Shown here piece after piece: positions 6,653-16,475 of a stretch of DNA of 56,995 nt (the first letter of the stretch is position 1; each line of letters opens with the position of its first letter). Source of the DNA: Streptosporangiales bacterium (GTDB lineage: Bacteria > Actinomycetota > Actinomycetes > Streptosporangiales > WHST01); contig WHST01000030.1 of assembly GCA_009379955.1 (NCBI GenBank), positions 1 through 56,995 of the forward strand, read 5' to 3'. The position numbers and the translations under genes are program-made. Under the pieces are notes generated by a model, which did not search any database, was not told where the DNA came from, and saw nothing but the letters and a program-made list of their open reading frames with translations.

Positions 6653-8002
6653 ATGACGCTGCGGAAGCGACTGGTCGACTGGCTGCCCACCCAGCGGTGG
6701 TACGCGGGCGGTTCGCGGGCGATCCGGCGCGTGGAGGTCGCGGCGCGTACCGAGCTCGTCACCGGCGACCCGGCGATGAGCCTGCTGCTCCTCACCGTCG
6801 ACCACGACGGGGGCACCGACACGTACCAGCTGCTGCTCGGCGAGCGGTCCGAGCTGCCTGACCGTCTCGAGCACGTCCACATCGGCGACGGCGACGGCGT
6901 GTCGTGGTACGACGCCGCCCACGACTCCGAGGTGACGCACCGGCTCCTCGAGCTCATCGCGGGCAACGCCGACGTGGGCCCGGTCCGGTTCCGGTCCGTC
7001 CCCGGCGCGCCGCCACTCGACGTCACCCTGCACAGCCTCGCCATCCCCCACGAGCAGACCAACACCTCCCTGGTGTTCGGCGAGGAGTCGATCCTCAAGA
7101 CGTTCCGCAGGCTCGTCATCGGCACCAACCCCGACCTCGAGGTGACCCTGGCGCTCGCCCACGCCGGCTCGCAGCACATCGCCGAGCCGCTGGGCTGGGC
7201 CGAGACCGACGTCGACGACACGACCACGACGCTCGCGATGCTGCAGCGGTACCTCCGCTCCGGCACCGACGGCTGGCTGCTCGCGACCGGCAGCGTGCGC
7301 GACCTCTACGCCGAGGGAGACCTGCACCCCGACGAGGTCGGCGGCGACTTCGCCGGCGAGTCCGAACGGCTCGGCGCGGCCACCGCCGCGGTGCACCGTG
7401 ACCTCGCCACGACGCTCGGCGTGGTCCCGGCGGGACCCGCCGAGGTCGAGGCACTCGCGGCGGGCATGCGGCGGCACCTCGTCGAGGCCCAGGGCGAGGT
7501 GCCGAGCCTCGCCGAACAGGTGCCGGCGATCGACGCGGTCTTCGCGGCCCTGCCGCGAGAGGTCGACTCCTTCACCGCACAACGCGTGCACGGCGACTAC
7601 CACCTCGGCCAGGTGATGCGCACCACCGACGGCTGGGCGCTGCTCGACTTCGAGGGCGAGCCGGAGCATCCGCTCGAGGCGCGCCAGGCGATGACGTCGA
7701 CGCTCAAGGACGTCGCCGGCATGCTGCGGTCGTACGACTACGCCGCGCGGCACCTGCTCGTCGAGCACTACGACGACGCGCAGCGCGAGACCCGCGCGCA
7801 GGAGTGGATCGACCACAACCGTGCCGCGTTCTGCGCGGGCTACGCGGCCGAGACCGGCACCGATCCCCGGTCGTCGGCAGCGCTCCTGCACGCGTTCGAG
7901 CTCGACAAGGCCGTCTACGAGGTCGTGTACGAGGCGCGGCACCGGCCGAGCTGGATGAAGATCCCGCTGGGCTATCTGGACCGGATTGCCGAGCGGGCGT
8001 GA
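6653..8002 (+). CDS. mak: maltokinase
   Basis: 449 aa. Phosphorylates maltose to alpha-maltose 1-phosphate, the GlgE donor. ATG 6653 is chosen over GTG 6632 because GGAAGGA at 6637-6643 sits 9 nt before it and [19 protein letters not shown] matches the usual N-terminal cap. The aminoglycoside-phosphotransferase-like fold shows the catalytic HGDYHLGQ near residue 312 and the metal-binding DFEGEP near 331. Length fits the roughly 450-aa mycobacterial enzyme. Its TGA overlaps the glgB ATG by one base (TGATG), so the two are translationally coupled. Confidence 0.93.
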
Positions 8003-10194: not shown

Positions 10195-10357
10195 GGCGCG
10201 TCTCCAAACGGCGTTCGAGGCGAGCGGCGTCCAGGGTGGTCAATGGCGGTGGCGGAGGACGAGCTCGTACTTGGGCGTACTTGCGAGCTCCGACAACGCC
10301 GCCAGTGGCCGTCCTGGGCGTCGCGTAGCCCGGACAGTCATAAGGAGACACGCCCTA
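10192..10357. mobile_element. MITE-like element with 14-bp terminal inverted repeats and a long imperfect palindrome
   Basis: TAGGGCGCGTCTCC at 10192-10205 is matched inversely by GGAGACACGCCCTA at 10344-10357 with one mismatch. Between them the two halves, roughly 10225-10275 and 10277-10325, are also inverted copies of each other at about 65-70 percent identity, centred on GAGCTCG...CGAGCTC. The whole 166 bp can therefore fold into one long hairpin. No ORF of transposase type lies inside. GGCGTGTCTCC-type ends are typical of actinobacterial IS elements, so this is probably a non-autonomous derivative. The left end coincides with the glgB stop codon. TA at each end may be the target duplication. 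Confidence 0.6.
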
Positions 10358-10364
10358 AACTTGT

Positions 10365-11053
10365 AATTAGACCTTTCGCCTGGGTTTGGTGCCTTTGTGG
10401 TGGGCGGGTCGGGTGTATGGCTCGCCTGTGGCGAGGACTCGCCCGACGTCGTGGCGGGTGGCGGGGTGCCGGTTCTTGGAGCCGGTGGGTCGTCCGGGGC
10501 CTGTGCGCGAGCTGGTGATGGGGTTGTGGCGCGGATGTTCCGGAACCCGCGGCGGACCCTTGCGGGGGTGAGTTTATTGGCTGGCAAGGGTTTCTCCCAC
10601 GGGCGGCGCAGGTCGGCGGCCAAGGGCCGGGCCAGGTATGACAGAACGAGCGATCCGGGCAGGTAGCACCGTCTGGCCGCAGCCACGCTGACACATCGAC
10701 AGCGAGGACCAACCGGCCATCAGCGGCGCGGGGCAGCGACAAACCCGCGAGCGCAGTCCGCAGCCGGGCGAAATCGATCCGGCCGCAGTTCACCGCGTCG
10801 TAGAGAGCGCCATGTCCGCGCCGGTGCTCGGGCGCCAGCGACAACCCGACCAGTGACCAGACCGGCCGTCGGTGCACAGCACCGCGTCGGCCAGCTCGAA
10901 CAACGCATCCGCCCGCGCGGTGAGGCAGTGATACAACTCCTGACGAAACGCCGCCAGCTCTCCGAGCGCGCCTTCGCGCCCGCCATCATGCACACTAACC
11001 CCCGCAGCCCTTGGGTCGAACTTCCTTCTGTCGCAAGAGGAAGCATCGACCAA
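10365..11053 (-). pseudogene. decayed transposase with internal deletion and frameshifts
   Basis: Pieces of one actinobacterial transposase can be read in three minus-strand frames. The first (11053 leftwards) has LGELAAFRQELYHCLTARA and ADAVLCTDG. The second (from 10877) has SLVGLSLAPEHRRGHGALYD and the conserved LVLAVDVSAWLRPD. The third (from about 10680) has LTPARVRRGFRNIRATTPSP, a C-terminal motif of the same family. After PDRSFCHT, where roughly 300 residues of catalytic core are expected, the sequence jumps straight to the C-terminal part. The core is therefore deleted and at least two frameshifts have built up. Family recognition rests on motif memory; no named IS is claimed. Confidence 0.65.
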
Positions 11054-12844: not shown

Positions 12845-12873
12845 CCTCCGGCTGCGTTTGCGCAGGCCGGAGG
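12845..12873 (+). terminator. hairpin terminator after the reductase gene
   Basis: CCTCCGGCTGCG pairs with CGCAGGCCGGAGG across a TTTG loop, giving about 12 pairs with one bulged base. CCGTTTCTC follows on the plus strand, so this is a weak intrinsic terminator for the gene ending at 12789. The same stem lies downstream of the convergent minus-strand gene ending at 12937 and may serve both. Confidence 0.6.
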
Positions 12874-12936: not shown

Positions 12937-13701
12937 CTAAAACACCTCGTCGGGAAGCTGATGGAAGCCGAGGCGGCGCAGCTCGGCCTCCGTGACCGGG
13001 GCGTCGGGAGTGACGCCACCGGTCTCGAGGAACGCGTACACCTGGCGCAGATGCTGCCCGGCATGGAGCCGGGTCCGTTCGAGGACCTGACCGAGCGTGC
13101 GCGGTCCGACGTCCGCGTCGATGGTTCGCTCGAACGCGTCGGTGTCGACCACCGCGTACCAGGTCTCGAACCTGAGCCGGACCGCCTCGCCGTAGCGGAC
13201 GAGCCGGGATCCGCCGGCCATATGCGGTATGTCGCGCTGATGCAGCCACTTCCTCGCGGGAAACTCGCCCAGCACGTCGGCGTCCACGCTCACGTCGACC
13301 ACGTGGAAGAGGTGACGCACCAGCTCGCGCAACGGACGGTTGCGCCGTGGGTGAGTCATCTCCCAGAGATCATCCGGCACCTGCCGTGCCGCTCGGATCG
13401 CGGCGTCGAGCACGAGCCGAACGGTCCTGACCAGCTCGTCCGGTGGGACGGGCGGCTCCTCGTGCCTGATCCCGACCAGCTCGGCAAGCCTGGTGGGATT
13501 CCAGCCGCTGACGAACTCGTCGCCGACGATGACGGCGGGGACAGTCATGATCCCGCGCGTACGGAGCTCTTCCATGGCCGACGGATCGGCCTCCACGTTG
13601 AAGTCGTCGAACTCGACGCCGCGACGCGAAAGCATTGCCTTCGTCATCGCACAGCTGCTTCAACCAGGCTTGGTGTAGACACGGATACGTGCCGGGTCCA
13701 T
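12937..13701 (-). CDS. probable selenoprotein: glutaredoxin-like domain fused to a DinB-like domain, in-frame TGA at codon 14
   Basis: From ATG 13701, preceded by GGGAG, the frame reads MDPARIRVYTKPG, then TGA (13662-13660), then SSCAMTKAML and on without interruption to 12937: 254 residues if TGA is read through. VYTKPG-x-SSC is the glutaredoxin/NrdH active-site context, so TGA replaces the first Cys of CxxC and C17 is the resolving Cys. The cis-proline motif TVP (P55) and a C-terminal GWNPTRLAELVG complete a thioredoxin fold of about 78 residues. A DinB-like four-helix domain follows (about 85-235) with candidate metal ligands H130, H133 and HAGQH (213-217). A start at ATG 13647 would lose the active site, as in typical misannotation of selenoproteins. 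It sits 14 nt after the dehydrogenase stop, so it is probably in one operon with it. Alternative: a nonsense mutation of a Cys codon. Confidence 0.75.
13621..13650 (-). promoter_or_regulatory. SECIS-like hairpin just downstream of the in-frame TGA
   Basis: Starting nine bases after the TGA, GCGAUGACGAAGGC pairs with GCUUUCGCGUCGC around an AAU loop. There are 13 pairs (two G-U) with a single bulged A. It lies within the coding sequence at the place where bacterial SECIS elements occur, with its loop about 24 nt past the UGA. The triloop lacks the GU of the E. coli loop; opening the top pairs would place G residues at its 5' side. GC-rich DNA forms hairpins easily, so this supports the selenocysteine reading but does not prove it. 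Confidence 0.55.
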
Positions 13702-13715
13702 CACACCCACTCCCT

Positions 13716-14801
13716 TCACTGAGGAACGACGCCGCACGCCTCGGCGATCGCGGCCCCCATCTGGCGGGTTGACGCGTCACCGCCGAGGTCCCTGGTCACT
13801 CGCGTGCGCTGTGCGATGACGCTCTCGACCGCGGCCTGGACTCGTCGTGCCGCGGAGGCCAACCGGTCGTCGCCGTGTCGTGCACCGAGCCAGTCGAGCA
13901 GCATCGTGCCCGACATGATCATCGCATAAGGGTTGGCCAGGCCCTTCCCGCTGATGTCCGGGGCCGAGCCGTGGGTCGCCTGTGCCATCGCCTGGTCGTC
14001 ACCCGCGTTGAGTCCCGGTGCCATCCCCAGTCCGCCGACGAGTCCTGCCGTGAGGTCGGAGAGGATGTCGCCGAACATGTTCGAGCAGAGCACGACGTCG
14101 AAACGCTGCGGACGCATCACCAGGTGCAGGGCGGCGGAGTCGACCTGGTAGTCGTCGAGCGCAACATCGGGGTAGTCCTTCGCGACCTCCTGCACCGTGT
14201 CCATGAACAACCCGTCGGTCAGCTTGAACACGGTGCGCTTGTGGATCGCCGTCACGCGTCGCATGCCGTCGCGTCGCCGCGCGGCCTCGAACGCCTCCCG
14301 TGCGATTCGCCGCGACTGCTGCCGGGAGATCACCCGGATGCTGAACGCGTTGTGCTCGTTCGGCTGGAACTCACCGCAGCCCGCCAGCATGTTCCGGTCG
14401 GGCTGGAAGCCCTCGTTGTTCTCGCGCACGACGAGCAGGTCGACGTCGCGATGAAGTGCTTCCACGGCGGGATAGGACCTCGCCGGGCGCAGGTTGGCGA
14501 ACAGGTCGAAGTGCCGGCGGATGATCGGATGCGGGTTCACGCACTCGGCGCGGTCCTTCGGGTAGGCCGCGTGCCCGATCGGACCGAGGATGAGGCCGTG
14601 CATCCGCTCGAGCCCGTCGAGCGTCTGCCGCGGCAGGGTGTGCCCATGCTCCAGATAGCTCGACCAGCCGACCGGGAACGGGCGGAAGGCCACCTCGAGC
14701 CCGGCCTCGCGTGCGATCGCGGCCTGCAGGACCCGGACGGCCTCCGGCACGATCTCGAGGCCGATGTCGTCGCCGTCCATCACGCCGATCTCGTATCCCA
14801 C
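13716..14801 (-). CDS. isocitrate/isopropylmalate dehydrogenase family protein (tartrate/D-malate dehydrogenase-like)
   Basis: 361 aa from GTG 14801 with GGAGGG about 9 nt upstream. NAD-dependent beta-decarboxylating dehydrogenases of this family oxidise 2-hydroxy acids such as 3-isopropylmalate, D-malate or tartrate. Visible motifs are the N-terminal GDDIGLEIVPEA (usually GDGIG), LVVRENNEGFQ, the catalytic-lysine region AIHKRTVFKLTDGLF, the metal-binding SNMFGDILSDLTAGLVGG, and HGSAPDISGKGLANP for NAD binding. Length equals that of D-malate dehydrogenases. It is followed at 14 nt by the glutaredoxin-DinB gene. An 11-bp inverted repeat about 20 bp upstream of the start is a probable operator. 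Substrate not determinable here. Confidence 0.8.
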   Translation of the reverse strand: MGYEIGVMDGDDIGLEIVPEAVRVLQAAIAREAGLEVAFRPFPVGWSSYLEHGHTLPRQTLDGLERMHGLILGPIGHAAYPKDRAECVNPHPIIRRHFDLFANLRPARSYPAVEALHRDVDLLVVRENNEGFQPDRNMLAGCGEFQPNEHNAFSIRVISRQQSRRIAREAFEAARRRDGMRRVTAIHKRTVFKLTDGLFMDTVQEVAKDYPDVALDDYQVDSAALHLVMRPQRFDVVLCSNMFGDILSDLTAGLVGGLGMAPGLNAGDDQAMAQATHGSAPDISGKGLANPYAMIMSGTMLLDWLGARHGDDRLASAARRVQAAVESVIAQRTRVTRDLGGDASTRQMGAAIAEACGVVPQ

Positions 14802-14890: not shown

Positions 14891-16330
14891 TCAGTCGCCG
14901 AGGTAGCTCATCACGTGCTTGACCCTGGTGTACTCCTCGAAGGAGTACATCGAGAGGTCCTTGCCGTAGCCGGAGTGCTTGAAGCCGCCGTGCGGCATCT
15001 CGCCGACGATCGGGATGTGTGTGTTGATCCAGACGCAGCCGAAGTCGAGCCGCTTCGCCGCGCGCAGAGCGCGCTTGTGGTCCCTCGTCCAGACGCTCGA
15101 CGCAAGGCCGTAGCGGACGCCGTTGGCCCACGCGATCGCCTCGTCCTCGTCGCCGAAGCGCTGCACGGTGACGACGGGACCGAAGATCTCGTCCTGCACC
15201 ATCTCGTCGTCCTGCCGCAGGTCGGCGACCACGGTGGGCGCGAAGAGGTAGCCGCGCTCCCCCACCTGCGTGCCACCGGTCGTGACCTCGGCGTGGCCGG
15301 GGACGCGGTCGAGGAAGCCCTTGACCCGCGCGAGCTGGTCGGGGTTGTTGAGCGGACCGAAGTCGGCGTCGGCGACGTCGATGCCGCCGACGGTGGTGCC
15401 GCGCGCGGCGTCGGTGATCGCGGCGACGAAGTCGTCGTGGACCGCCGGGGCGACCAGGACCCGGGTCGCCGCGGTGCAGTCCTGGCCGGCATTGAAGTAC
15501 GCGGCCTCGGCGATGCCCTTCGCGGTCTTCTCGATGTCGGCGTCGTCGTACACGATCACCGGCGCCTTGCCGCCGAGCTCGAGGTGCAGGCGCTTGAGGT
15601 CGCCGGACGCGGCCCTGGCGACCTCCATGCCGGCGCGGACGCTGCCGGTGACGGAGATGAGCTGCGGGATCGGGTGGTCGACGAGGGCGCGACCGGTGTC
15701 GCGGTCGCCGGTGACGACGTTGAGCACGCCGGGCGGCAGGAACTCCGCCGCGATCTCGGCGAGCAGCAGCGTGGTCACCGGCGTCGTATCAGACGGTTTG
15801 AGCACCGTCGTGTTGCCCGCCGCGATCCCCGGCGCGAACTTCCACGTCGCCATCGCCATGGGGTAGTTCCACGGCGTCACCTGTCCGACGACGCCGATCG
15901 GCTCGCGCCGGATCCATGACGTGTGGTCAGCGAGGTACTCCGCGCTCGCCCTGCCCTCGAGGATCCGCGCCGCGCTCGCGAAGAAGCGCAGCGCGTCGGT
16001 CACCTGCCAGATCTCCTCGGTACGCGTCGGCGCGAGCGGCTTACCCGTGTTCTGGCTCTCGAACGCGGCGAGCTCGTCGGCCCGCGCCTCGACGGCATCG
16101 GCGATGCGGAACAGCGCGAGGCTCCGCTCGGCGGGCGTGGTGTCGCGCCAGCCCTCGAACGCGTCCGCCGCGGCGCGGAACGCCCGGTCGACATCGGCCT
16201 CGCCCGACACCTGCGCCCGCGTGAACACCTCACCGGTGCTCGGGTCGACGATGTCGGCGAGCCGACCCTCGGTCGCGTCGACGTACCGCCCGCCGACGAA
16301 GTTCTGCAACGTCCCCACTGTGCCGGCCAA
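14891..16330 (-). CDS. gamma-aminobutyraldehyde dehydrogenase-like aldehyde dehydrogenase
   Basis: About 479 aa. TTG 16330 is favoured because GGAGG lies 6 nt before it; GTG 16318 (MGTLQNFVGG) is the other candidate. NAD-dependent oxidation of an amino-aldehyde is the likely reaction. The catalytic Cys context FNAGQDCTAATRVLV and the C-terminal INTHIPIVGEMPHGGFKHS with GYGKDLSMYSFEEYT match the PatD/YdcW subgroup that turns 4-aminobutanal into 4-aminobutyrate in putrescine breakdown. The general Lys (WKFAPGIAAGN region) and Glu (LELGGKAPV) motifs are present. It precedes the hydroxyacid dehydrogenase on the same strand. No putrescine aminotransferase or oxidase is in the window. Confidence 0.85.
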   Translation of the reverse strand: MAGTVGTLQNFVGGRYVDATEGRLADIVDPSTGEVFTRAQVSGEADVDRAFRAAADAFEGWRDTTPAERSLALFRIADAVEARADELAAFESQNTGKPLAPTRTEEIWQVTDALRFFASAARILEGRASAEYLADHTSWIRREPIGVVGQVTPWNYPMAMATWKFAPGIAAGNTTVLKPSDTTPVTTLLLAEIAAEFLPPGVLNVVTGDRDTGRALVDHPIPQLISVTGSVRAGMEVARAASGDLKRLHLELGGKAPVIVYDDADIEKTAKGIAEAAYFNAGQDCTAATRVLVAPAVHDDFVAAITDAARGTTVGGIDVADADFGPLNNPDQLARVKGFLDRVPGHAEVTTGGTQVGERGYLFAPTVVADLRQDDEMVQDEIFGPVVTVQRFGDEDEAIAWANGVRYGLASSVWTRDHKRALRAAKRLDFGCVWINTHIPIVGEMPHGGFKHSGYGKDLSMYSFEEYTRVKHVMSYLGD

Positions 16331-16475
16331 CCCAGACCTCCTCGATCGAATCCTCCACGCATTCAATCGCACCCCCTCCGCGGCCGTCACCTATCCGGGC
16401 ATTGCACGTTAACCAGCCATACCCGGCGACCGGTCGCTTCCACGCAATCCAGACAAAGAAGGGAAACAGGTCTTC

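Follow-up and report, generated by a model that had tools for sequence, protein, structure and literature searches.

Both Sec-containing glutaredoxins and DinB thiol transferases have been described before. The former keep the glutaredoxin (Grx) fold of PF00462, place selenocysteine (Sec) at the first active-site position of a UxxC motif and carry a bSECIS within the gene, for which the published model is a stem-loop 16-37 nt after the UGA, with a stem of 4-16 bp and a G in the first two apical-loop positions, mostly G[G/U] (PMC13188914). The latter belong to the DinB/YfiT S-transferase-like superfamily, a four-helix fold with a three-ligand metal-site pattern that includes mycothiol S-transferase, mycothiol-dependent maleylpyruvate isomerase and the metal-dependent bacillithiol transferases BstA-H, in which three histidines are the only fully conserved residues (PMC5815605). 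Grx-like selenoprotein domains also occur in the UXX-star and HUGP/GUXX-star fusion selenoproteins of NCBIfam, and Cys-type Grx–DinB fusions are found on Pseudomonadota plasmids (WP_162571355.1, WP_244817409.1, WP_207446294.1).

The window analyzed here, positions 1 to 56,995 of contig WHST01000030.1 of a Streptosporangiales bacterium, holds a Grx–DinB fusion gene that almost certainly encodes a selenoprotein, with the UGA at codon 14 decoded as Sec by SelB and tRNA-Sec via a downstream stem-loop. Its product shares features with each of these systems and differs from each. The Sec glutaredoxin of the inventory is a plain Grx, whereas the window protein is fused to DinB and lies nearer NrdH/YruB than GSH-type Grx. 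It shares the four-helix fold, the metal-site pattern and an above-cut-off DinB_2 match with the DinB/YfiT superfamily but adds an N-terminal selenol redoxin domain, and its transferase or isomerase activity is a prediction. The Pseudomonadota fusions have the same architecture and invariant residues at 26-34% identity, but read CSSC instead of USSC and lack a SECIS stem. The UXX-star and HUGP/GUXX-star proteins have no DinB part, and all their models, among them the UXX-star models NF041212, NF041211, NF041114 and NF047338, score the window protein below their curated cut-offs.

The sequence-only reading had suspected that a Sec Grx–DinB fusion was undescribed, and the sources consulted agree. 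No model in NCBIfam 20.0 reaches its cut-off on the window protein and no fusion model is among the matches of other family members, a 2026 inventory that covers 119 families and subfamilies of prokaryotic selenoproteins has no DinB fusion entry, and no description of a DinB selenoprotein was found in the open-access full-text literature. Within that literature, neither the Sec fusion family nor the division of Sec and Cys forms between phyla appears to have been described; the parts are familiar, and their combination makes an apparently new family of fusion selenoproteins. It would add to the selenoproteins of Dehalococcoidia and of two actinobacterial lineages a family that standard ORF calling cuts before the active site, and would tie Sec chemistry to the DinB thiol-transferase superfamily.

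An intact frame across an in-frame TGA

The gene and its coding features, all on the minus strand, are as follows.

12937..13701 (-): gene for the predicted Sec-bearing Grx–DinB fusion (254 aa, from ATG to TAG), supported by homologues
13660..13662 (-): in-frame TGA, the predicted Sec14 codon; the same codon is TGA in 17 other genes
13474..13686 (-): glutaredoxin/NrdH-like domain, residues 6-76; PF00462 E=4.9e-17; fold match to NrdH
13651..13653 (-): Cys17, the invariant resolving Cys in the UxxC motif
13039..13407 (-): four-helix domain of DinB_2 type, residues 99-221; PF12867 29.9 bits against a cut-off of 24.8; folds like DinB/YfiT and mycothiol S-transferase
13312..13314 (-), 13063..13065 (-) and 13051..13053 (-): His130, His213 and His217, in that order; all three are invariant and predicted to bind the metal

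From ATG 13701-13699 to TAG 12939-12937 the frame spans 254 codons with a single TGA, at codon 14, so the intact frame claimed by the sequence-only reading stands. Read with Sec, the N-terminus is MDPARIRVYTKPG-U-SSC..., and the motif around codon 14 is VYTKPG-U-SSC. The start chosen by standard ORF calling is ATG 13647, which gives 236 aa without the active site, just as had been foreseen for gene callers. The whole frame, including the 13 codons 5' of the TGA, can be aligned with an orthologue from a congener (G346, Acidothermales bin_12; L026/L059) that is 79% identical and keeps the TGA, with 16 further TGA-bearing fusions and with Cys versions. Differences from the congener orthologue fall 35/29/100 by codon position, which indicates that the Grx–DinB frame is under purifying selection.

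Besides the orthologue, a phylum sample gave one further TGA-bearing fusion in another actinobacterial class (L076, genome G743). A search across the class of a Dehalococcoidia bacterium, 393 genomes in all, gave 15 fusions from 11 of them; every one has a single in-frame TGA, and none is of Cys type. All 15 TGAs stand at the same codon, in the contexts PGUSSC, GUATC, GUFTC and PGUHSC. One of these genes, L170:2741-3355, is no longer homologous at its C-terminal end, for which an assembly frameshift is the probable cause. A search for homologues with Cys or TGA at codon 14 thus finds both, Cys in Pseudomonadota and TGA in Actinomycetota and Dehalococcoidia; the expectation that every relative would have Cys there holds for the Pseudomonadota members read but fails for the actinobacterial and Dehalococcoidia fusions found, all of which have TGA. 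With 17 other genes carrying TGA at this codon, a sequencing error that resequencing would correct to TGC or TGT is very unlikely. An apparent paralogue with a TGA in the same genome (C52:18382) was rejected, being a mycoredoxin-like protein of the ordinary kind (CGYC) with a match that overruns the gene's own stop.

Probable recoding signal and machinery

A candidate bSECIS follows the TGA.

13627..13643 (-): upper stem-loop of the putative bSECIS, spanning +17 to +33 from the TGA, with 7 uninterrupted pairs and an AAU loop

All 18 Sec fusion genes have 6-8 contiguous pairs in one register after the TGA. Against a null in which the protein is held fixed and codons are resampled synonymously, such pairing has p=0.003-0.017 per gene, values that are not independent since the genes are related. 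The window gene has 7 pairs (p=0.007); by the same measure, 2-4 pairs are present in the six Cys fusion genes and in one gene for a Cys redoxin (p>=0.2). Compensatory changes occur at three stem pairs among the Sec genes and at none in the Cys gene set. Between the two congeners, the excess of conserved codons downstream of the TGA is only slight (Fisher p=0.067), and synonymous resampling is the stronger evidence. Standalone Sec redoxins from Dehalococcoidia (L060:7983-8231) and Actinomycetota (L078 from 1501, and L077), with the motifs GUGPC, PGUASC and TUPYC, also have a stem after the TGA, in the same register as the fusion genes or shifted by one base.

Stem length and spacing agree with the published bSECIS model (PMC13188914). 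The apical loop of the window copy is less typical: its triloop is AAU (C-AAU-G), where L026 has GUG, the Dehalococcoidia genes AGUUU or close to it, and relatives GU. The loops of the relatives fit the model; the window loop lacks G[G/U] and has a leading G only if two upper pairs are opened or counted as loop. A covariance model trained on Dehalococcoidia scores L076 at 24.1 bits and L026, L078 and L060 more weakly. It fails to find the window copy, and some Cys genes score as well, the latter because coding conservation overlaps the stem, and for both reasons it is not counted as proof. Decoding of the window copy could therefore be inefficient, given its atypical AAU loop and its absence from the covariance matches, and this is the chief reservation about the gene. 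Even so, a bSECIS is the likeliest means by which Sec14 is decoded: SelB and tRNA-Sec would be directed to the UGA at codon 14 by an in-CDS stem-loop starting about 16 nt downstream.

All four genes whose absence would have undermined the selenoprotein claim, selA, selB, selC and selD, are present in the genome. Contig C87 of the same assembly carries selB with an adjoining tRNA-Sec, selD and selA (440.7 bits), and ARAGORN identifies a tRNA-SeC with a UCA anticodon there. A second match to the tRNA-Sec model, at C4:74189-74276 (L018), exceeds the gathering score and is a false positive, a tRNA-Ser (anticodon TGA). The sel contig also bears a second selenoprotein gene, of the UGSC family (L027, 7255-7837; PF24696 157.4 bits), with an in-frame TGA at 7564 and a stem-loop after it. 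selA is above cut-off in 7/7 other genomes tested, including the fusion carriers G346, G743 and G1059 and the carriers of TGA-bearing standalone redoxins G859 and G1004, and every TGA-bearing genome tested has it. Another congener, G345, has selA and tRNA-Sec and no fusion orthologue at E<=1e-8, so the fusion gene is not the sole reason for Sec use in the genus.

Could the TGA be a real stop after all, created by sequencing error or marking a pseudogene, with a working protein that starts at ATG 13647 and has no active site? Standard calling of the 236-aa ORF and the atypical apical loop of the window copy would fit, but codons 1-13 and the TGA are kept in the congener, 16 other genes share the TGA, the Sec-specific stem is present, the full Sec machinery is encoded and purifying selection acts across the whole frame. 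Given the conserved TGA and conserved stem, pseudogene or sequencing error is rejected, and a real stop is highly improbable. Still more remote is a genome-wide reassignment of UGA to a residue other than Sec, for which the in-frame TGA is the one favorable observation: TGA terminates neighboring genes, for example the upstream dehydrogenase at 13716-13718, TGA is the stop codon of the congener orthologue and of two Dehalococcoidia fusions, and tRNA-SeC and SelB are present. Since TGA also serves as a stop, an alternative genetic code is rejected. Very probably, then, the fusion gene reads through its 'stop' to yield a selenium-containing redox protein, one that occurs with TGA at this codon in two bacterial phyla.

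Two domains and a predicted metal site

The redoxin half matches PF00462 at residues 7-64 with 62.3 bits against a gathering cut-off of 22.9. It scores 61.4 bits with the NrdH redoxin model TIGR02194, below the curated cut-off of 85.75, and is likewise below cut-off with the YruB models. Its fold matches NrdH (1h75, Z 13.2). The DinB half matches 6iz2 (Z 13.6) and 8f5v, the zinc-bearing mycothiol S-transferase of Mycobacterium tuberculosis (Z 13.3), and with lower scores the mycothiol-dependent maleylpyruvate isomerase structures 2nsf/2nsg (Z 10.1-10.8), for which no specific sequence model matched. A short linker joins the two domains. The structure model, built from 3 sequences, has a pLDDT of 72.8 and does not fix the domain arrangement or the Sec-to-metal distance. 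Whole-model Foldseek matches to GSTs and SspA were rejected as homology, with rmsd of about 10-17 Å.

Besides the start Met, the residues invariant in a 22-row alignment are G13, U/C14, C17, K21, P55, H130, H213, H217 and Q220. The ligands proposed earlier for the DinB part were H130, H133 and the HAGQH motif; H130 is indeed invariant, H133 is replaced in most relatives, and the conserved triad is H130, H213 and H217. By homology of fold and ligands, the domain should bind one divalent metal through His130/His213/His217.

Genomic setting

Genes and signals flanking the fusion gene are on the same strand.

13716..14801 (-): isocitrate/isopropylmalate-type dehydrogenase, upstream; PF00180 E=2.4e-85
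14891..16390 (-): aldehyde dehydrogenase, aminobutyraldehyde dehydrogenase subfamily; NF010000 692.6 bits, cut-off 615
12845..12873 (-): terminator-like hairpin downstream of the fusion gene, an inverted repeat; -35.7 kcal/mol, z -5.2

The upstream dehydrogenase, which reaches no specific NCBIfam model, ends 14 bp before the fusion ATG, a gap that makes one operon probable; the aldehyde dehydrogenase probably belongs to it too. In other lineages the neighbors include MmgE/PrpD, CoA transferase III, HpcH/HpaI aldolase, amidase, an isochorismatase-type hydrolase and Opp-type ABC transporters. Neighborhoods vary from one fusion gene to the next, with a catabolic setting in several lineages and no regulatory gene consistently adjoining. 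A DDE_5 transposase fragment (window 10338-10877, minus strand) lies between a glgB-like gene and the fusion locus.

What the fusion might do

Taken as a whole, the locus is probably best explained as a Sec-decoded NrdH/Grx-like redoxin joined to a DinB domain that performs metal/thiol chemistry on electrophiles. The likely function is that of a metal/thiol-dependent transferase or isomerase whose substrates are electrophilic intermediates of catabolism and whose reductant is the tethered selenol redoxin; as the sequence-only reading supposed, a selenol redox centre may be coupled to a metal-dependent thiol-transfer domain. The product would join a redoxin of NrdH/Grx type, with Sec-Ser-Ser-Cys as its active site, to a DinB-type four-helix domain. 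In a working scheme whose chances we judge to be even, the DinB domain would carry out metal-activated thiol chemistry, by addition, transfer or cis-trans isomerization, on electrophilic carbonyl/enoyl intermediates of small-acid catabolism, and the tethered selenol redoxin would resolve a mixed (seleno)disulfide or supply the nucleophile, so replacing or regenerating a low-molecular-weight thiol. Re-reduction would pass through Cys17, probably by thioredoxin reductase, a partner suggested by the NrdH-like match. A bolder version, which we consider rather doubtful, is that a GST-like enzyme has been arrived at a second time, with a tethered selenol redoxin replacing the diffusible thiol cofactor (glutathione, mycothiol or bacillithiol); if true, one polypeptide holds both the nucleophile and the electrophile-activating metal.

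Two other roles for a genuine selenoprotein are unlikely, to about the same degree. The redoxin could control the DinB metalloenzyme, as a redox switch or a sensor of peroxide, instead of sharing in its catalysis. Selenols react fast with peroxides, and the linker between the two domains is short; yet Cys17 and Pro55 never vary, which is also the pattern of catalytic dithiol redoxins, and no regulatory gene is a consistent neighbor. Alternatively, the protein could be a pure disulfide reductase for which DinB is only a docking or dimerization module, a proposal that gains from the standalone Sec redoxins of the same type (L060, L078) but meets the invariance of the three histidines and Gln220 over very divergent members, which suggests catalysis in the DinB half.

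Sec and Cys forms

The Grx–DinB architecture appears in 13 records from Pseudomonadota plasmids, and CSSC is found in 6/6 different members read, from Variovorax, Caballeronia (3), Roseomonas and Rhizobium. In one class-wide genome search nearly all matches were confined to the redoxin part, and in viral and phage collections the matches were to the redoxin domain, none covering the DinB part. In the fusion phylogeny, the Cys forms sit among the Sec forms and adjoin one Dehalococcoidia group; the tree is rooted at the midpoint only and has some long branches, and so does not fix the direction of Sec/Cys change. The two versions form a natural pair with which to test the reason for Sec use and the idea that a tethered selenol may replace a low-molecular-weight thiol. 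Four Dehalococcoidia genomes have two fusion selenoprotein genes each (G1332, L158/L160; G1344, L159/L161; G1406, L163/L165; G1444, L166/L168), and in G1406 and G1444 the two copies fall in different subgroups of the tree.
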